Shown piece by piece: positions 1,876-11,572 of a stretch of 20,101 bases of DNA (positions are counted from its first letter, which is position 1; each line of letters starts with the position of its first letter). A model generated the notes under the pieces. It was given only the letters and a program-made list of their open reading frames with translations. It made no database searches and had not been told where the DNA came from. The position numbers and the translations under genes are program-made. This stretch comes from a virus: positions 1 to 20,101 of the IMG/VR virus record IMGVR_UViG_3300020450_000132; one strand, 5' to 3'.

Positions 1876-2623
1876 AGATAAAAATATTACAGTCTGGTTT
1901 AGTTGTGGTGCTGCAAGTGCAGTAGCAGCTAAGAAAACTATAGAGCTATATGGTCAAGACAACACGATAAGAGTCGTCAATAATCCTATTAAAGAAGAGC
2001 ATGAAGATAATCAAAGGTTTTTAAAGGACGTAGAACATTGGTTGGGTGTTGAGATAGAGTATGCCATCAACCCCAAATTTCCTGACGCATCATGCGAAAC
2101 TGTATGGCAAGAAAGAAAATTTATGTCTGGTGTATTTGGTGCGCCATGCACATTACATCTAAAAAGAAATGCTAGACAAGTATGGGAAATAAAAAATCCA
2201 ACTGATTATATTGTTTTAGGTTTTACTGCTGATGAAGAAAAACGAGCAAAGAGATTTAGTGAAACAAATAAGCAGCAACTATTAACGCCTTTGATAGATG
2301 AGGGCATAACAAAGCAAGGTTGTTTTGATATTCTTATGTTTGAGGGTATAAAATTACCAGAGATATATTCTTTGGGTTACCCAAATGCTAATTGTATTGG
2401 TTGTGTCAAAGCATCTTCACCTACTTACTGGAATCTTGTAAGAAAAACATTTCCTAATGTATTTCAAAAAAGAAGTGAAACTTCAAAAAATATTGGAGCA
2501 AGGTTAGCTATTTATAAGGGACAAAGAATATTTTTACATGAACTGCCAGCAGATGCTAGAGGTAGAGATCTTAAGAGCTATGATTTTGAATGTGGTATTT
2601 TCTGTATAAAAGAAGATGAGTAA
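1868..2623 (+). CDS. Phage PAPS reductase-like PP-loop protein
   Basis: This 251-residue protein belongs to the adenine nucleotide alpha-hydrolase/PAPS reductase superfamily. The nucleotide-binding PP-loop is the N-terminal VWFSCGAASAVAA (residues 9-21), in which the canonical SGGxDS is altered to SCGAAS, a form common in phage members. Cysteines at 94 (GAPC), 176 and 179 (NCIGC), and 242 and 246 (ECGIFC) are spaced as expected for a metal or Fe-S site. Conserved stretches GARLAIYKGQRIF and HELPADARGRDLKSYDF support the phage family. Family members activate or reduce sulfate-type substrates. Relatives such as DndC and ThiI/TtcA-like enzymes put sulfur into DNA or tRNA, but the phage clade's substrate is not known to me. 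It overlaps its upstream neighbour by 8 bases and the following small gene by 8 bases, so it is within an operon. Confidence 0.85.
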   Translation: MFRDKNITVWFSCGAASAVAAKKTIELYGQDNTIRVVNNPIKEEHEDNQRFLKDVEHWLGVEIEYAINPKFPDASCETVWQERKFMSGVFGAPCTLHLKRNARQVWEIKNPTDYIVLGFTADEEKRAKRFSETNKQQLLTPLIDEGITKQGCFDILMFEGIKLPEIYSLGYPNANCIGCVKASSPTYWNLVRKTFPNVFQKRSETSKNIGARLAIYKGQRIFLHELPADARGRDLKSYDFECGIFCIKEDE

Positions 2624-2738
2624 GGGTAGTAAACGCAGGCCAGAAGATAAGAAAAAAATTGATAATAATTGGGATAAAATATTTCTAAATGAAAAAAATA
2701 AAAAAAAGATTAGTACAATACAGACAGACGATAGCTAA
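2616..2738 (+). CDS. Small basic phage protein, MSKGSKRRP type (40 aa)
   Basis: A 40-codon frame begins inside the end of the PP-loop gene (8-base overlap). It opens MSKGSKRRPED and carries NNWDKIF at residues 17-23. This arrangement (MSKGSKxRP, then a variable link, then NWDxIF) recurs in very small hypothetical proteins of many phages, usually near replication or nucleotide genes, which is why I trust so short a frame. The rest is lysine-rich with a TDDS end. No function is known to me. Translational coupling to the upstream gene is likely from the overlap. Confidence 0.72.
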   Translation: MSKGSKRRPEDKKKIDNNWDKIFLNEKNKKKISTIQTDDS

Positions 2739-2802
2739 CATTATTGATGCAAAGATTGAAAAGTCACTACAAAAGAAAGCAAACAAACTACATGGGAGAT
2801 AA
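2689..2802 (+). CDS. Possible small basic protein (37 aa)
   Basis: This short frame overlaps the 3' part of the preceding small gene in another phase and ends 5 bases before the DUF3310 start. It encodes a strongly basic, helix-prone peptide (MKKIKKRLVQYRQTIANII, ending KKANKLHGR). It fills what would otherwise be a gap in a tightly packed operon, but there is no clear Shine-Dalgarno before its ATG and I recognise no family. The GGGAG within its last codons is the ribosome binding site of the next gene. It may be a chance frame in A-rich DNA. Confidence 0.4.
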   Translation: MKKIKKRLVQYRQTIANIIDAKIEKSLQKKANKLHGR

Positions 2803-2807
2803 GAATA

Positions 2808-3035
2808 ATGGGTATATATGATTCGGTACAAAATCCTAAACATTATTGCGAAGATAAAATAGAATCTTTAGACTATATCAAGCAGCAATTAGGTAAGCAG
2901 GGTTTTATGGCTTATTGTGTTGGCAATATGCATAAATATTTGCATCGACATGAAAAGAAGGGTGAGAACATACAAGATCTTAAAAAGCTTATCTTTTATG
3001 CTAATGAAAAGATAAATGTATTAGAAAACTTATGA
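2808..3035 (+). CDS. DUF3310 family protein (75 aa)
   Basis: The protein matches the DUF3310 pattern seen across phages: an N-terminal NPKHY, then IESLDYIKQQLG, then a central FMAYCVGNMHKYLHRHEKKG, and a C-terminal DLKKLIFYANEKI helix. Length (75 aa) is normal for the core domain. The family is often called nucleotide kinase-like in annotation, but no catalytic role is established to my knowledge, and this short form has no P-loop. A good GGGAG site sits just upstream (about 2794-2798). The stop overlaps the next start as ATGA (3032-3035), indicating coupled translation. Confidence 0.88.
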   Translation: MGIYDSVQNPKHYCEDKIESLDYIKQQLGKQGFMAYCVGNMHKYLHRHEKKGENIQDLKKLIFYANEKINVLENL

Positions 3036-3196
3036 GTAAAGTTATTAGCGTAGAAGTATTAAGAGAAAAGATTAATAAAGGCATATCAAGTTATGATTGC
3101 GCTAGAACTTTCGGTGTAAGTCAATCAACAGTAATTAGAAGAGCAAAACAATACGGTTTACAGTTTAAGGGTAAATCAACCTGGAGAAACCTATGA
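3032..3196 (+). CDS. Small helix-turn-helix protein (54 aa)
   Basis: A 54-codon frame starts in the ATGA overlap with the DUF3310 gene and ends in another ATGA overlap with the next gene (3193-3196). The middle of the protein (residues 17-41) reads GISSYDCARTFGVSQSTVIRRAKQ in two parts: helix 2 (SSYDCARTFG), a turn (VS), and a recognition helix (QSTVIRRAKQYG). This is the resolvase/transposase-type helix-turn-helix found in homeodomain-like proteins. The overlaps at both ends strongly support it as a real gene. It may be a small DNA-binding regulator of the phage, or a packaging accessory given its position just upstream of the terminase. There is no evidence for either role beyond the fold. 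Confidence 0.78.
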   Translation: MSKVISVEVLREKINKGISSYDCARTFGVSQSTVIRRAKQYGLQFKGKSTWRNL

Positions 3197-3804
3197 AAAT
3201 AATTGTCAAGCATGATATAGATAAAGCTGTAAAAGCTATAAACAATTTTGATAAAAGACATTTACCTGAAGCTACAGCAAAATCAATAAATATAACTTTA
3301 TTTGGCTTACGCAAAGAGATGATGAAGCAATTGCCAAAAAAACTTGATAGACCTACACCAGCAACAATAAAAGGTTTTCTTGTATCAAAAGCACACAAAA
3401 ATAAATTGGGTGGTATATTGTTTATAAAAGAATTTGTAGAAAAATATTTAAAGTTTCAAATAACAGGTGGAGTTAGAACAAGCGAAAGGAAAATACCAAT
3501 ACCATATACACCAAACGCAAGATTAAATAAGTATGGAAATATTGTTGGAAAAAGATCTGGATTAATCAAAAAGAAGAGTCAGTTTATTGGAACTGTAAAA
3601 GGAATTACTGGTGTTTGGGAAAGAGTAAAGGTTAAGTCTACTAGTCAGTCAAAGTCTCCACTAAAACTTATTGTTGGATTTCATAAAACAGTAGATTATC
3701 AACCTAAATTTCCTTTTTTTAAAATAGGCAGAGGTTACATAAGGTCTAAGTTTCAAAGGAATTTTGTAAGAGCATTTAATGAAGCTAAGAGAGGTATACG
3801 CTAG
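3193..3804 (+). CDS. Phage structural-type protein, weakly like minor tail/completion protein
   Basis: The 203-residue protein is very basic. It opens with a helical stretch (DKAVKAINNFDKRHLPEATAKSI in parts), then LPKKLDRPTPATIKGF at about residues 49-64. A central part has TGGVRTSERKIPIP and NKYGNIVGK, and the C-terminal half contains GVWERVKV and YQPKFPFF. The order (paired AIN helix, DRPTP, a GGxR loop, YGNI, GVWER, then an FxFF end) matches a family of phage hypotheticals in prophages of Proteobacteria. Its start also resembles lambda gpZ-like tail completion proteins. Function therefore stays tentative. Its position upstream of terS, rather than among the tail genes, is unusual for a gpZ relative. 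It is coupled to the helix-turn-helix gene by an ATGA overlap. Confidence 0.62.
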   Translation: MKIIVKHDIDKAVKAINNFDKRHLPEATAKSINITLFGLRKEMMKQLPKKLDRPTPATIKGFLVSKAHKNKLGGILFIKEFVEKYLKFQITGGVRTSERKIPIPYTPNARLNKYGNIVGKRSGLIKKKSQFIGTVKGITGVWERVKVKSTSQSKSPLKLIVGFHKTVDYQPKFPFFKIGRGYIRSKFQRNFVRAFNEAKRGIR

Positions 3805-3898
3805 TGTGTAGGTTCTTCCTAGCAACGCAACGTGGGTTATTCGCGACGGCAGATGTTTTTTAGCGACAAATGTTCTGTACTAAGGTAATTTTCTACTA
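3805..3898. other. G+C-rich gap before terS, candidate cos site
   Basis: This is one of the few gaps in the packed gene array, 94 bases directly upstream of the Nu1-like small terminase gene, the place where cos lies in lambda. Positions 3821-3853 hold 19 G/C of 33 bases, clearly higher than the surroundings. They include CGTGGGTTATTCGCGACGGC (3831-3850), which loosely recalls the lambda cosN block with GCGGGTTTTCGC. TAGCGAC at 3861-3867 repeats the CGCGAC part. No frame of use spans it. The cos assignment rests on position, composition and this loose resemblance. Confidence 0.35.
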
Positions 3899-4399
3899 AT
3901 GGCAACACAAAGAGAAGCTGCTGAACATTTAGGACTTTCTGTTAAAAGTATTTCGCAATTAATAAAAAATGGAGTTTTGCCTTCAAAAAGAGGTCGATCA
4001 CCTCTTAATATTGATGTTTGTCGACATGCTTACATTAGTTATCTAAGAAAATTGTCTGGTTATCACAAAACTAGCGGTACAGGAGACATTGCAGAAGAAA
4101 AAACAAGGCTTACAAAGGCGCAAGCTGATAAAGCAGAACTAGAGGTATCTGAACTTGAGGGTAAGCTTATACCAGCACAATTAGTGCAAGATACCTGGAC
4201 TGATTTTGTAGCAAATGTACGAGCAAAGCTACTTGGTATGCCTTCAAGGCTAGCACATCAAATGATTGCAACTGAAGATTATGCCGAAGCAGAAAAATTA
4301 CTTAAAGATTGTGTATATGATGCACTGAATGAATTAGCAGAAAATGGAATACCTACAGAATATGCAGGACGTGTTGAAAAACACGATGCAGACGTTTAA
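3899..4399 (+). CDS. Terminase small subunit, lambda Nu1-like
   Basis: The 166-residue protein begins with a winged-helix DNA-binding domain (TQREAAEHLGLSVKSISQLI, then GVLPSKRGRSP) as in Nu1-type small terminases. A strongly conserved-looking EKTRLTKAQADKAELEVSEL at about residues 62-82 follows, matching the RLTxAQADxxEL signature of lambda gpNu1. Next come LIPAQLVQDTWTDFVANVRAKLLGMP and a C-terminal helix likely to bind the large subunit. It would recognise the phage packaging site and load TerL. The gene runs 14 bases into terL. The start ATG has only a weak AAGGT upstream. An annotated cos-type gap lies directly before it, as in lambda. Confidence 0.85.
   Translation: MATQREAAEHLGLSVKSISQLIKNGVLPSKRGRSPLNIDVCRHAYISYLRKLSGYHKTSGTGDIAEEKTRLTKAQADKAELEVSELEGKLIPAQLVQDTWTDFVANVRAKLLGMPSRLAHQMIATEDYAEAEKLLKDCVYDALNELAENGIPTEYAGRVEKHDADV
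4366..4388 (+). promoter_or_regulatory. Hairpin with GAAA loop between Shine-Dalgarno and terL start
   Basis: AGGA at 4366-4369 is followed at once by CGTGTT (4370-4375), a GAAA loop (4376-4379) and AACACG (4380-4385), then ATG at 4386. The 6-bp stem is perfect and GAAA is a GNRA tetraloop. Without folding the AGGA lies 16 bases from the ATG, too far for good initiation; folding would remove the hairpin from the spacing. A hairpin between SD and AUG is known for T4 gene 38. The same bases encode the end of terS. Confidence 0.42.
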
Positions 4400-6234: not shown

Positions 6235-6861
6235 TTGAGCAATAGATTCGATAGAACAAATTATCCGACTGCTGAACCTGCAAAACTTGTTGCTGGTGAT
6301 AGATTTACATGGCGAAGAGATGATCTTGCTAATGATTATGCAGTTGGTGCGTTTGCATTAAGCTATGAGTTTCACTCCGATGCAGGTGGTGGCGGAAGTA
6401 AGAAGTTTACTATTGCTGCAACTGAAGCAGATAGCACCTACTACATAGAGGTTGGTTCATCAACCACAGCAAGTTATACTCCTGGTGATTATATCTGGGA
6501 AGCTTATGTAACAAGAAGCTCTGACTCAGAACGCATTATGGTAGACTCTGGTAGAACAGAGATTACCACCAATCTTGCTAACACAAACGCTGATCTTAGA
6601 AGTCATGCAAAGAAAGTGCTTGACGCAATAGAAAGCGTTTTAGAGGGCAGAGCAACAATTGATCAAGCGTCCATGTCGATTGCAGGCAGATCACTCTCAA
6701 GAACTCCAATACCTGATTTGATGCAGTTGCGAGATAGGTATAAAGCCGAATATCTTAAAGAAATTAAATTAGCTAGAATCAGAAACAAGCAAGGATCAGG
6801 CAATACTATAAAAGTTAAGTTTGGTCAGAATACAACAATTAACCCAACAGATTACACATAA
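6235..6861 (+). CDS. Head-tail joining type protein with N-terminal beta domain, TTG start
   Basis: The protein (about 208 residues) lies directly before the portal gene, the slot of lambda gpW. Residues 1-115 are rich in beta strands and glycine (AFALSYEFHSDAGGGGSKK, YTPGDYIWEAYVTR) and look like a small beta-sandwich. Residues 120-208 are helical: DAIESVLEGRATIDQASMSI, RTPIPDLMQLRDRYKAEY, then a basic tail ending in a short strand region. That C-terminal part resembles gpW-like connector proteins. No ATG is available. TTG at 6235 lies 6 bases after GAGGA (6224-6228) and is preferred over TTG at 6232, which is too close. The ATG of the portal gene overlaps the stop by one base. The role is inferred from position and fold pattern. 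Confidence 0.66.
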   Translation: MSNRFDRTNYPTAEPAKLVAGDRFTWRRDDLANDYAVGAFALSYEFHSDAGGGGSKKFTIAATEADSTYYIEVGSSTTASYTPGDYIWEAYVTRSSDSERIMVDSGRTEITTNLANTNADLRSHAKKVLDAIESVLEGRATIDQASMSIAGRSLSRTPIPDLMQLRDRYKAEYLKEIKLARIRNKQGSGNTIKVKFGQNTTINPTDYT

Positions 6862-8354
6862 TGGCTTGGTACGATAATTTATTAGGCAATAACAAAAAGA
6901 AAGTTAAGAAAAGAACTTTTAAAAGAAGTTATCAAGGTGCAAATACAGGGAGACTATTTGCAGACTTTCTAACAAGCTCTACAAGTGCCGATGCAGAAGT
7001 CAAAGACAACCTTAGAATCTTAAGAGATAGAGGTCGAGAGTTAGCACGCAATGATGCATATATCTCAAGATACTTAAATTTGATGGTATCTAATGTCATT
7101 GGCAAGCAAGGCGTAAGAGTAAGCTCCAAATCGTACAATGATGATAGATCGTTGGACATTGGAGCTAACCTGCTGATCGAAAGAGGTTGGAAAGAATGGT
7201 CACAACTTGGCAACTGCACTCTTAATGGCAGGCTTTCATTTTTAGATTGTCAAAAAATATTTATAGAAACTCTATTAAGAGATGGAGAAGTACTAATTCG
7301 TAAAGTAAAAACTACCGATTCGCCTTTTGGTTTTCAAATACAATTTTTAGAAGCAGATCATTTAGACGAGCAAAAAAATGACAGCACTTTGCCAAATGGT
7401 AGAAGTATCAAGATGGGTGTCGAGGTTGACAGAAATGATAAACCTATTGCTTATCATTTATTTAAAAAACATCCTTATAGCAATACCTACCCAAAACCTG
7501 CGCAAGAATATATAAGAGTGCCTGCTGAAGAAATAATACACGCATATTTACCAAACAGAGCAGAACAAACAAGAGGTGTATCTTTTATTGCACCTGTAAT
7601 GGCAAATGTAAAACAATTAAACGCATACCTTGAAGCAGAGATAGTAGCTGCAAGAGTAGGAGCATCTAAACAAGGCTTCTTTATTTCTCCAGACGGAGAT
7701 GGGTACGTGGGAGATGGCGATTATGAAGATACTTTTAATCCTACAATGACTGCTCAAGCAGGTGTATTTGAACAATTGCCAGCAGGCATGGATTTTAAAG
7801 CTTTTGATCCATCTCATCCTAATTCTGCTTTTGATTCTTTTACAACTAGCGTATTAAGAAGTATCGCAAGCGGTTTAAATATTTCTTATCACAGCTTAAG
7901 TAACGACTTAACATCTGTTAATTATTCAAGCATTAGACAAGGAGCTTTAGAAGATAGAAGCAACTATCAAATTATGCAGCAATTTATAATTGAGCATTTT
8001 GTTGATCCTATATTTAAAGCTTGGCTTGAAATGACAATATCGACAGGTTACATAAATTTACCGATGGGTAAGTTTGATAAGTTTGCTAGAGGTATAACTT
8101 ATATACCTAGATCTTTTGCACACATTGATCCATTAAAAGAAATGCAAGCAAATGTAATAGGGTTGCAGAATGGCACAATAACTTATAGTGATATTACATC
8201 AACTTTTGGTAGAGATGTAGAAGAACTTTTTGAACAACATCAAAAAGAATTAGAGCTAGCAAAACAATACGACATAGAGTTAGCGTATCAACCCTTTGGT
8301 ACTAAACTACCAGTTGAAGCAAAAATACTAGGTGGAGACGATGAAGATGCCTAG
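6861..8354 (+). CDS. Portal protein, lambda gpB-like family
   Basis: The 497-residue protein has the features of the lambda-type portal family. An N-terminal region around residues 48-75 (DNLRILRDRGRELARNDAYISRY) is followed by VIGKQGVRVSSKS. Then come CTLNGRLSF and the ETLLRDGEVLIRK motif, IQFLEADHLD, IPAEEIIHAY-like VPAEEIIHAYLPNRAEQTRGVSF, and the helical SGLNISYHSLSNDLTSVNYSSIRQG stretch. This order, and the length of about 500 residues, are as expected. A dodecamer of this protein forms the vertex channel through which TerL pumps DNA and on which the connector assembles. The gene sits between the joining protein and the protease-capsid frame, which its last codons overlap (GGTGGAG within them is that gene's ribosome site). 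Confidence 0.93.
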   Translation: MAWYDNLLGNNKKKVKKRTFKRSYQGANTGRLFADFLTSSTSADAEVKDNLRILRDRGRELARNDAYISRYLNLMVSNVIGKQGVRVSSKSYNDDRSLDIGANLLIERGWKEWSQLGNCTLNGRLSFLDCQKIFIETLLRDGEVLIRKVKTTDSPFGFQIQFLEADHLDEQKNDSTLPNGRSIKMGVEVDRNDKPIAYHLFKKHPYSNTYPKPAQEYIRVPAEEIIHAYLPNRAEQTRGVSFIAPVMANVKQLNAYLEAEIVAARVGASKQGFFISPDGDGYVGDGDYEDTFNPTMTAQAGVFEQLPAGMDFKAFDPSHPNSAFDSFTTSVLRSIASGLNISYHSLSNDLTSVNYSSIRQGALEDRSNYQIMQQFIIEHFVDPIFKAWLEMTISTGYINLPMGKFDKFARGITYIPRSFAHIDPLKEMQANVIGLQNGTITYSDITSTFGRDVEELFEQHQKELELAKQYDIELAYQPFGTKLPVEAKILGGDDEDA

Positions 8355-11295
8355 ACCAAATGAGGGCATGAAAGCCGAAGCACGAAAGGGTATAGATTGG
8401 CGTGCCGAATTTGGTAGAGGCGGAACTAGGGTTGGAGCTACTAGAGCAAGACAAATTGTTAATGGTGAGAACTTATCAGATGATACTGTTAAGAGAATGT
8501 TTAGCTTTTTCTCAAGACATGAGGTAGATAAACAAGCAGAAGGTTTTAGACCTGGTGAAGATGGCTACCCTTCTAACGGTAGGATAGCATGGGCGTTATG
8601 GGGTGGAGATGCAGGATTTAGTTGGTCAAAGAGGTTTGTTGAAAAAATGAAAAATGAAAAGGGTATTGTTAGTGTGAGAAACGAGACTATTGAGTATAAA
8701 GTTATAATTAAAAAAGGTGAAAACAAATATGGTGAAGGGAACAAGTTTTATTTAGATGGCGAGTTATCACCAAGTTTAATGTTAGAGATTGGCAACACCT
8801 ACGTATTTGATATATCAGATCAATCCAATAAAACACATGGATTGCGTTTCTCAACAACAGAAGATGGTATCCACAATGATGGTCAAGAGTATAAAACAAA
8901 TGTAAAAGTTGTTGGCAAAGCTGGCGAAGCAGATTCGAGTATAAGTATTGAGATTGATGTTGATACTCCAGACCTATATTATTATTGTATTAATCACGCA
9001 GGCATGGGTAATAAGATAATGATAAAAGATAATGAAGAAAGAAGCGTGAGAGGCACAGAAGAAACCTTGCGAGAAAAAGCAAGAGAGCATAACAAAGAAG
9101 TTGGCGATAACCCATCTAAAAGAACAAGTTATGCAACCTTACAAAAAGTTTACAACAGAGGAATCGGTGCTTTTAAAACATCGCCTCAAAGCGTACGTCC
9201 CACAGTTAAGTCAAAAGAACAATGGGCGATGGCAAGAGTAAATAATTTTTTGCGTGTTCTAAGAACAGGCAGATTTAAGTCAGGAAAGCATGATACTGAT
9301 TTGCTTCCTGCATCACATCCTTTATCAAGTAAAAATAAAGAGGAGAAATCTATGAATGATAAAGACGATAGACATATCCTCAATGTTGCGGAAACAGGCG
9401 AAAAAGTTGTTGTCGAGTTTGCAAAGCACCTTGAGGATGGACAAGAAGGCGAAGAGGTGGAAATGCCTCAAGAAGCACGTCCATATCATTATGGCGATGA
9501 TGATGAAGATGAAAAAAATAGAAATGTAGTTGACTTAAAAGTTGAATACAGAACTATTGATTTATCAAGATCGGAATTTGTCGATGAAGAAAATAGACGT
9601 GTAAGGATTGGTGTTTCTAGTGAAGAGCCAGTTGAAAGAAGTTTTGGAATGGAAGTTCTAGGACATTCACCAGAAGAAATAAACATGGAGTTTATGCAAT
9701 CTGGACGAGCGCCATTGCTACTTGATCATAAGATGGATCAGGTAATTGGTGTTGTTGAAGAATTTAAACTTGATCAGGCAGCGCAAAGAACTGTTGCTGT
9801 GGTCAGATTTGGTCGATCTGATCTTGCTGAAGAAGTATTTAGAGATGTGCTTGATGGCATACGCATGAATATTAGCGTTGGCTATCGAGTAGATAAATTA
9901 ACCAGAATGAAAGAAAAAGACGAAAACTACTACAGAGCAAGCTGGACACCTTTAGAGGTATCCTCTGTTGCTGTGCCAGCAGATTCTAGTCGTAAAGTCG
10001 GTGTCGGACGTTCTAAAGAAATTGCTGAAAAAGCAAGGATAGAAATAATGTCAGAAGAAAAGAAAGAAATTAATCTTGATGATGTTAGATCAGAAAGTGC
10101 TGAAGCTGCTAAAAAAGAATTTGCAAGAAACTCAAAAGAGATTCTTGATTTAGCTGTTAAGCACAATAAAAGAGATTTAGCACACCAAGCTATATCTGAA
10201 GGCAAATCTGTTGAAGAATTTAGAGGTCTATTATTAGATAACATATCTAATGATGTGCCTTTAGAAACTCCAAAAGATATTGGTCTTACAGAGAAAGAAA
10301 CTAAAAGATTTAGCATAATGAGAGCTATTAATGCGATGGCTAATCCTACAGATAGGAAAGCTCAAGAAAATGCTAAGTTTGAATTTGAAGCTTCAGAAGC
10401 AGCACAAAGAGAGTATGGTCAAACTGCTCAAGGTATTATGTTGCCAGATGAAGTTTTAAGAAATTGGAATCAGAGAGATTTATCTGCTGGAAGTGATGGA
10501 GACCTAATCGGTCAAGATTACAGAGCAGGTGATTTCATTGATGTACTAAGAAATAACTCTGCTGTTATGCCATTAGCAACTATGCTAAATGGTCTTACAG
10601 GCGATGTTAAGATACCAAAGAAAACTGCTGCTGCATCTGCTGCTTTTATTAGTTCAGAAGGTGGCGCTGCTGGTGAATCAGAGTTAACAGTTGGCAATGT
10701 AAGTATGTCTCCTAAGTCATTAGGTGCGTTTACAGACATTACAAGACAACTTATGATTCAATCATCTTTGGACGTAGAAAATCTTGTTAGAAACGATCTA
10801 GCTGCTTCAATGGCTATTGCTATTGATGATGCTGCATTAGAGGGATCAGGAAGTTCAGGTAATCCAACAGGTATTACTAACACTTCAGGAATTAACACAG
10901 TATCACTTTCAAGTGCTGCTGCGCCTACTTTTGCAGAAATGGTAGCAATGGAAACAGCAGTCAGAGTGGATAACGCACTACTAGGCGATTTAGCTTACAT
11001 AGTACATCCATCTAACTATGGCACATTGAAAACTACTGAGAAAGCAACTAACACAGCACAATTTGTTGCTGAAAACGATCAGATCAATGGCTATAGTGCT
11101 GTTGTTTCTCCACAGTTAACAGCTAACAATTATGTTTTTGGTAACTTTAACGACCTGCTTATAGGTATGTTTGGAGGCCTTGACCTAGTTGTTGATCCTT
11201 TTTCTCAGTCAACTACTGGTACTGTGAGAATAGTCGCTTTACAATCAGTTGATGTCGCTGTGAGACATGCAGTTTCATTCTGCGCTGGTTCATAA
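8347..11295 (+). CDS. Multidomain prohead protease-major capsid fusion with cupredoxin-like domain
   Basis: One uninterrupted frame of 982 codons. Residues 3-100 (RGGTRVGATRARQI, RHEVDKQAEGF, RIAWALWGGDAG) form a domain recurrent in phage head-region proteins. Residues 118-223 form a cupredoxin-like domain with possible type-1 copper ligands His164, Cys214, His217, Met220 (YYYCINHAGMG). Residues 237-328 (YATLQKVYNRGIGAF, DLLPASHPLSS) form another recurrent phage domain. Residues 336-560 are an HK97-type (U35) prohead protease with catalytic-type His461 (LLLDHK) and Ser510 (NISVGY). Residues 568-982 are an HK97-fold major capsid protein with a helical scaffold-like start (EFARNSKEILDLAVKH) and GNPTGI. 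The protease would trim the scaffold part during maturation. I chose ATG 8347 because GGTGGAG lies 9 bases upstream; ATG 8341 and GTG 8332 are alternatives. Internal starts at 9352 and 10048 have good ribosome sites. Confidence 0.9.
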   Translation: MPRPNEGMKAEARKGIDWRAEFGRGGTRVGATRARQIVNGENLSDDTVKRMFSFFSRHEVDKQAEGFRPGEDGYPSNGRIAWALWGGDAGFSWSKRFVEKMKNEKGIVSVRNETIEYKVIIKKGENKYGEGNKFYLDGELSPSLMLEIGNTYVFDISDQSNKTHGLRFSTTEDGIHNDGQEYKTNVKVVGKAGEADSSISIEIDVDTPDLYYYCINHAGMGNKIMIKDNEERSVRGTEETLREKAREHNKEVGDNPSKRTSYATLQKVYNRGIGAFKTSPQSVRPTVKSKEQWAMARVNNFLRVLRTGRFKSGKHDTDLLPASHPLSSKNKEEKSMNDKDDRHILNVAETGEKVVVEFAKHLEDGQEGEEVEMPQEARPYHYGDDDEDEKNRNVVDLKVEYRTIDLSRSEFVDEENRRVRIGVSSEEPVERSFGMEVLGHSPEEINMEFMQSGRAPLLLDHKMDQVIGVVEEFKLDQAAQRTVAVVRFGRSDLAEEVFRDVLDGIRMNISVGYRVDKLTRMKEKDENYYRASWTPLEVSSVAVPADSSRKVGVGRSKEIAEKARIEIMSEEKKEINLDDVRSESAEAAKKEFARNSKEILDLAVKHNKRDLAHQAISEGKSVEEFRGLLLDNISNDVPLETPKDIGLTEKETKRFSIMRAINAMANPTDRKAQENAKFEFEASEAAQREYGQTAQGIMLPDEVLRNWNQRDLSAGSDGDLIGQDYRAGDFIDVLRNNSAVMPLATMLNGLTGDVKIPKKTAAASAAFISSEGGAAGESELTVGNVSMSPKSLGAFTDITRQLMIQSSLDVENLVRNDLAASMAIAIDDAALEGSGSSGNPTGITNTSGINTVSLSSAAAPTFAEMVAMETAVRVDNALLGDLAYIVHPSNYGTLKTTEKATNTAQFVAENDQINGYSAVVSPQLTANNYVFGNFNDLLIGMFGGLDLVVDPFSQSTTGTVRIVALQSVDVAVRHAVSFCAGS
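9341..9354 (+). promoter_or_regulatory. Internal ribosome binding site and start for protease-capsid product
   Basis: AGGAG at 9341-9345 (within AAAGAGGAG) is 6 bases from an in-frame ATG at 9352. The site falls exactly between the N-terminal extension and the protease domain. It would start MNDKDDRHILN and give a 647-residue protease-capsid protein without the cupredoxin and flanking domains. Confidence 0.62.
10036..10050 (+). promoter_or_regulatory. Internal ribosome binding site and start for major capsid protein
   Basis: AGGA at 10036-10039 is 8 bases before an in-frame ATG at 10048. Translation would begin MSEEKKEINLDD and yield a 415-residue capsid precursor with a normal HK97-type helical scaffold segment, the length expected for a stand-alone capsid gene. 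The site lies at the boundary of protease and capsid. Confidence 0.6.
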
Positions 11296-11313
11296 TTGAG
11301 TGGTTTTAACGAC

Positions 11314-11343
11314 TAAAAAAATGGGTGGCGCTATTGCCACCCA
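11314..11343 (-). terminator. Hairpin with A-tract, reads as an intrinsic terminator on the minus strand
   Basis: TGGGTGGC (11322-11329) and GCCACCCA (11336-11343) form a perfect 8-bp stem with a 6-base loop. An A run (11315-11321) lies on the left. On the minus strand the order is stem then T run, a canonical intrinsic terminator. On the plus strand the right flank (ACTTAATAAAG) has no U run, so any effect there would be partial, such as attenuation or mRNA protection just after the capsid gene. Confidence 0.55.
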
Positions 11344-11362
11344 ACTTAATAAAGGTGAATAT

Positions 11363-11572
11363 ATGAAATATTTAATATTAACTGACACAGTTGCAAACAA
11401 AGAAAAGGTCAAAGCAGGCGATGTGGTTGAACTTCCTATTGATGAAGGTAGATCATTAGTTGGCTATGGCAAAGCTGAAGAGTATAAGGGCAAAGCTAAA
11501 AAAGAAACCAATAGAAGCGTAGGACTTGAAGAGTCTGATGCTCCAAAGCCAAAGAAAAGAACTAAGAAGTAA
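11363..11572 (+). CDS. Small lysine-rich phage protein after capsid gene (69 aa)
   Basis: The ATG at 11363 follows a good AAAGGTGA site and starts MKYLILTDTVANKEKVKAG. The protein has a short beta-type N-terminal region (VKAGDVVELPIDEGRSLVGYGKAEE) and a lysine-rich tail ending KPKKRTKK. Small proteins of this kind, with an AGDVVEL strand and a basic tail, are common between the capsid and connector genes of siphoviruses. Their role is not established; a capsid accessory or assembly role is a guess. A longer frame from 11300 is possible but its start lies within the hairpin region and has no ribosome site. The stop overlaps the next start (TAATG). Confidence 0.7.
   Translation: MKYLILTDTVANKEKVKAGDVVELPIDEGRSLVGYGKAEEYKGKAKKETNRSVGLEESDAPKPKKRTKK

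Follow-up and report, generated by a model that had tools for sequence, protein, structure and literature searches.

Does a reading frame that places accessory domains, a prohead protease and a major capsid domain in series yield a single product? The question is raised by a 20.1-kb linear virus fragment, which constitutes the source record and was analyzed over its whole length of 20,101 nucleotides (hereafter the window). Translation of positions 8347–11295 of the plus strand gave 982 residues and no internal stop, as the initial annotation had reported, and near-identical full-length frames are present in independent contigs (L002–L005). Relatives of the long frame in other contigs share 86–99% identity, and almost every relative has the frame uninterrupted. 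Frame changes in the scaffold/capsid region were seen in contigs L024 and L049, in the same area of both (about core residues 656–716), and are probably assembly errors. The open stretch reaches upstream to position 8332, and its first ATGs are at 8341 and 8347. The sequence AGGTGGAG provides a Shine-Dalgarno element at the usual distance before ATG 8341 and is better placed for this codon than for 8347, so the long product may start at 8341 and comprise 984 residues.

The small and large terminase genes (GpA type) come first, followed by a head-tail joining gene, the lambda-type portal gene and the long frame, and then by genes for head closure, the tail terminator, the major tail protein, the tape measure and fibres. 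By its gene content this is an ordinary siphophage late region, and we take the virus to be a marine siphophage. The last bases of the portal gene, which stops at 8354, also belong to the long frame, and promoter-like sites in the region were at no more than chance level. A phosphoadenosine phosphosulfate reductase-like gene (1868–2623; phrog_424, E 2.3e-39), possibly an auxiliary metabolic gene, is located just upstream of the packaging genes, and a small gene with a weak match to phrog_2616 (11300–11572) begins four bases past the capsid stop. The features of the locus are summarized in Table 1.

Table 1. Features of the long frame and the adjoining portal gene, in window coordinates
Feature	Position	Strand	Evidence
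Lambda-type portal gene	6861..8354	+	PF05136, E 1.4e-96
Long frame: modules A, C, D, protease, scaffold, capsid	8341..11295	+	Open frame, AGGTGGAG; 982 residues from 8347, 984 from 8341
Module A	8347..8661	+	Residues 1–105; phrog_2859-like, E 3.5e-31; helical model; dN/dS 0.105
Module C, cupredoxin-like	8680..9030	+	Residues 112–228; AlphaFold pLDDT 93.3; Foldseek PDB matches; candidate ligands H164/C214/H217/M220 invariant
Module D, DUF5824-like	9031..9336	+	Residues 229–330; PF19141 at residues 257–309, E 1.6e-6, above cutoff
Internal start ATG 9352 with ribosome site AGGAG (both proposed), protease-capsid, 647 aa	9341..9354	+	Near-invariant in the window's clade; energy against synonymous null
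HK97-type prohead protease	9535..10047	+	Residues 397–567; phrog_617; TIGR01543 below cutoff; candidate catalytic His461, Ser510
Internal start ATG 10048 with ribosome site AAGGA (both proposed), capsid subunit, 415 aa	10035..10050	+	ATG in 49/49; Shine-Dalgarno against synonymous null
Scaffold region and major capsid domain (HK97 fold)	10048..11295	+	Pfam match 10525–11286, PF05065, E 2.4e-37

The protease-capsid half of the frame turned out to be ordinary. The capsid domain matched PF05065 at residues 727–980, and TIGR01554 was also above cutoff. The profile phrog_617, which covers protease plus capsid, matched residues 397–981 over almost its whole length (E 5e-141). His461 and Ser510, the candidate catalytic pair, are kept by all 50 relatives compared; the protease profile TIGR01543 taken alone was below cutoff. 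Joining of the two genes had initially been regarded as abnormal, but such fusions are common. A tblastn search with the whole protein gave 321 phage records, many of them with protease and capsid in one annotated gene, NCBIfam family NF045541 is entitled 'prohead protease/major capsid protein fusion protein', and in MD8-like phages protease, scaffold and capsid are reported in one gene (PMC8508860). The core of the window joins this kind of fusion via phrog_617 and stands outside NF045541 itself, since its score of 137.5 bits is below the cutoff of 525 and only the first half of the model was matched. The unusual part is the set of modules in front of an already known fusion, including the cupredoxin-like one.

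At least six interchangeable modules were identified in related loci: A (phrog_2859-like), C (cupredoxin-like), D (DUF5824-like), T (Hva1_TUDOR-like, PF11160) and the unnamed N and H. With P for protease and M for capsid, the in-frame orders include ACDPM, NCDPM, NDCPM, ADPM, NDPM, ATPM, ACTPM, AHPM, ADHPM, APM, TPM and PM, and module C is thus found either ahead of or behind D. Once duplicate loci from the same contig are removed, module C is fused in frame to the protease-capsid in 40 distinct viral contigs, of which the window is one. Median pairwise dN/dS was lowest for A (0.105) and the capsid (0.111), followed by C (0.153), the protease (0.155) and D (0.233); these low values (0.10–0.23) indicate that the modules are translated and constrained. 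Chance fusion or misassembly is ruled out by the 40 distinct contigs together with purifying selection. The folds of modules A and D were modelled as helical from a shallow alignment, with no PDB match below E 2, and no metal motif was recognized in either.

Modules C and A were also found inside another type of head protease gene, PF14550 (Peptidase_S78_2, XkdF; E 2e-16), located at 2527–3855 of phage L124 and 2794–4122 of phage L125, where the gene upstream looks tape-measure- or tail-protein-like. These two modules are therefore tied to head proteases of two families and not to this capsid alone. Neither this second association nor the shuffling of modules and the internal start sites described below had been mentioned in the initial annotation.

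An acidic stretch ending in arginine (EER, DDR or DER) is present at nearly all module junctions, including those of related loci. It is suggestive only, and might represent protease cut sites or just linkers that tolerate recombination. In the natural variant L016 (1995–2260), a deletion and a frame change disrupt module A and leave the frame from D through the capsid intact, which is consistent with independent expression. In Roseobacter phage CRP-823 (L140, 689–3617), a run of Ts in module H is one base longer, and the gene is thereby split into two, both annotated as 'major capsid protein'. We dropped this split gene as a natural knockout, since the additional T may reflect either a sequencing error or a natural frameshift.

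The 117 residues of module C were modelled with AlphaFold2 from a 42-sequence domain alignment, which gave nine strands at a pLDDT of 93.3 and a pTM of 0.87. Among the matches listed by Foldseek against the PDB, 50 of 50 were cupredoxin-fold copper proteins, including CueO and other laccases, ascorbate oxidase, rusticyanin, AcoP and nitrite reductase, with a best E of 1.7e-4 and a TM score of only about 0.5. Module C is thus predicted to be a cupredoxin beta-sandwich, in agreement with the assignment first made from its motifs. The four residues then proposed, His164, Cys214, His217 and Met220, are at the positions given and are invariant in the 42 sequences, down to about 43% identity to the window. 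Judged by sequence, the module retains the complete type-1 copper ligand set in the order His, Cys, His, Met, and it probably binds copper.

Sequence searches reached less far than the structural model. Cupredoxin family profiles, proposed at the outset as a check, gave no match to module C that passed a family cutoff; PF00127 (Copper-bind) matched 6 of the 42 members weakly (best E 0.014), the window copy not being among them. PDB sequence searches with the module gave nothing meaningful (best E 0.05–0.15), and a match to FctA (PF12892, E 0.01) was below cutoff and taken as chance. Within phages, module C matched tail-fibre and baseplate PHROGs, and the nearest named viral models in Foldseek were cyanophage structural and fibre proteins, which bears out the early recognition of a recurrent module of marine phage tail and fibre proteins. 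A cupredoxin protein near the portal of S-TIM5 was considered and set aside, as it is not a recognizable protease.

A scan of genomes with the window's module C alone retrieved zero relatives, and a profile scan retrieved only more distant domains of at best 49% identity, in marine bacteria and archaea; a recent host origin of the module was rejected on these grounds. The genome contigs (L145–L185) carry the cupredoxin domain in proteins of SAR86, SAR92, Porticoccaceae and Marine Group II. The C-X2-H-X2-M motif is kept in 35 of 42 of the distant bacterial and archaeal domains, and a few have lost the Cys-His-Met ligands. The existence of such ligand-less relatives in marine bacteria indicates that the fold does not strictly need the ligand site. 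Module C could accordingly be a stable beta-sandwich spacer that aids assembly and makes no use of copper in the phage; modules A and D, which share its position, have no recognized metal motif. Against such a role, all four ligands are invariant across 42 sequences that diverge to about 43% identity. We consider this role possible but the less probable reading of module C; it would be compatible with the nested-gene model presented below.

Turning to the products of the frame, two putative internal start sites were found. Although the stretch joining protease to scaffold differs among relatives in both length and sequence, the column of ATG 10048 holds ATG in 49 of 49 relatives, counting those that have a residue in this column. 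The Shine-Dalgarno pairing before 10048 had a mean of −5.20 kcal/mol, as compared to −2.47 (sd 0.31) when codons were redrawn synonymously, and a pairing of −3.5 or better was observed for 92% of the 10048 sites versus 18% of 1,101 other internal ATGs. Column 10048 was alone in combining a mostly-ATG codon with a strong site; a few well-populated columns had Shine-Dalgarno-like sequence of equal strength and lacked a start codon. Alignment of the methionines at 10048 may partly reflect a preference of the aligner; the methionine and the ribosome site are nonetheless present in each sequence. The capsid start site was found in ep3, Alexa, RcCronus, VP882, Persinger and five Roseobacter phages. 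It was not clearly seen in FoX5, S-LBS1, MQ-4 and S-CBS3, and some relatives thus manage without it.

The second site, GAGGAG before ATG 9352, falls after module D and ahead of the protease and is near-invariant in the window's clade. Over the 39 module-bearing sequences its energy was −6.66, versus −5.13 (sd 0.30) for the synonymous null; the conserved residues KEEKS account for much of this strength, and the site is missing from one deep clade. The statistics of both start sites are strong but not fully independent, because the relatives share ancestry. We infer that the starts at 10048 and 9352 are used in translation. Thus, the 982-codon frame initially described stands as a frame, whereas a single product does not follow from it, given the two conserved internal starts.

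We propose that the locus is a nested capsid gene, to which we assign a probability of roughly 60%. Translation from 10048 would give the most abundant product, a capsid subunit of 415 residues (44.2 kDa), translation from 9352 a minor protease-capsid of 647 residues (70.8 kDa), and translation from 8341 or 8347 the rarest, a long form of 982–984 residues (108.6 kDa) carrying the modules into the procapsid. The capsid part of the longer chains would build them into the shell, which would place the protease and the modules inside the procapsid at low copy number. The protease would then cut the chains during maturation, and the modules would be freed as internal proteins that may be kept, ejected with the DNA, or degraded. 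The frame, the predicted fold, the ligand conservation, the module shuffling, the purifying selection and the conserved internal start sites are established at the level of sequence or prediction; from them we infer the product ratios, the interior location and the cleavage.

If each subunit were instead the full 982-residue chain, a self-cutting polyprotein with modules, protease and capsid in equimolar amounts, the internal sites would be relics of earlier separate genes. Few relatives, indeed, have a break in the frame, and fused genes in which no internal site is seen exist, such as those of FoX5 and MQ-4. Relics should decay, yet the capsid start is kept beyond the needs of the encoded residues in deep lineages. 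Furthermore, a T=7 procapsid appears to offer too little room for full-length chains in equimolar amounts: counting as mass everything before the mature capsid, and assuming a copy number of 415 and cleavage near residue 670, full-length chains would need about 31.5 MDa of interior as compared to about 20–28 MDa of room at an assumed inner radius of 18–20 nm. This rough estimate agrees with long chains being a minority, and we regard the polyprotein as improbable. Display of the modules on the head exterior as decoration, binding for example particles, metals or hosts, was suggested initially and would fit with phage heads commonly bearing decorating domains and with relatives of module C on tail fibres and other structural proteins, but it is highly improbable, since, by established topology, the part of the chain ahead of scaffold and protease should point into HK97-type procapsids, and another lineage has the same modules attached to its head protease.

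Conserved in-gene starts, as proposed in the nested-gene model, would be a testable explanation of why a phage whose protease and capsid are fused need not make a protease for every capsid subunit. The results also point to a family of conserved interchangeable modules before head proteases, two of which are common to two protease families. In the open-licence literature searched we found no report of internal starts or of exchangeable modules ahead of the protease in protease-capsid fusion genes, and no earlier description of a cupredoxin, or copper-protein fold, in a phage head or capsid precursor. A broader and more speculative proposal, which we hold only tentatively and consider rather unlikely, is that protease-capsid 'fusion' genes are in general nested and have an internal start dedicated to the capsid, and that in marine phages the rare long product is a loading device. 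It would covalently install exchangeable modules in the head interior, a copper-binding cupredoxin among them, which might then be delivered into the host along with the DNA.

Among known systems, the tripartite capsid gene of Salmonella phage Gifsy-2 holds protease, middle region and capsid in one gene and forms a T=7 head; its protease is ClpP-like, that of the window HK97-type, and we know of no accessory modules in the Gifsy-2 gene. With the type-1 copper cupredoxins (amicyanin, rusticyanin and the CueO domains), module C shares the predicted fold and the order of a His followed by C-X2-H-X2-M, with a ligand spacing that we take to be that of amicyanin. Unlike these proteins, it is part of a head precursor, matches no profile at cutoff, and is known here from sequence and a model. 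The XkdF-type head protease bears the same modules C and A; it belongs to a different protease family, is separate from the capsid, and has the modules between an N-terminal segment and the protease domain. The fusion family represented by phrog_617, NF045541 and the MD8-like phages (PMC8508860) has protease, scaffold and capsid in one frame in the same order as the core of the window, which differs in its up to three conserved exchangeable modules before the protease and in its conserved internal starts. A precedent for such a start is lambda C/Nu3, where a shorter head protein, the scaffold, starts in frame inside the longer protease gene (Shaw and Murialdo 1980, as cited in PMC8508860). The window's gene likewise has a conserved in-frame ATG with a ribosome site, but its nested product would be the capsid subunit instead of the scaffold. 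Finally, accessory proteins inside the head, the proposed outcome here, are found as the internal proteins of T4 and DarB of P1, which use a short targeting peptide (PMC9024508), whereas the cargo of the window would enter fused to the protease-capsid chain.
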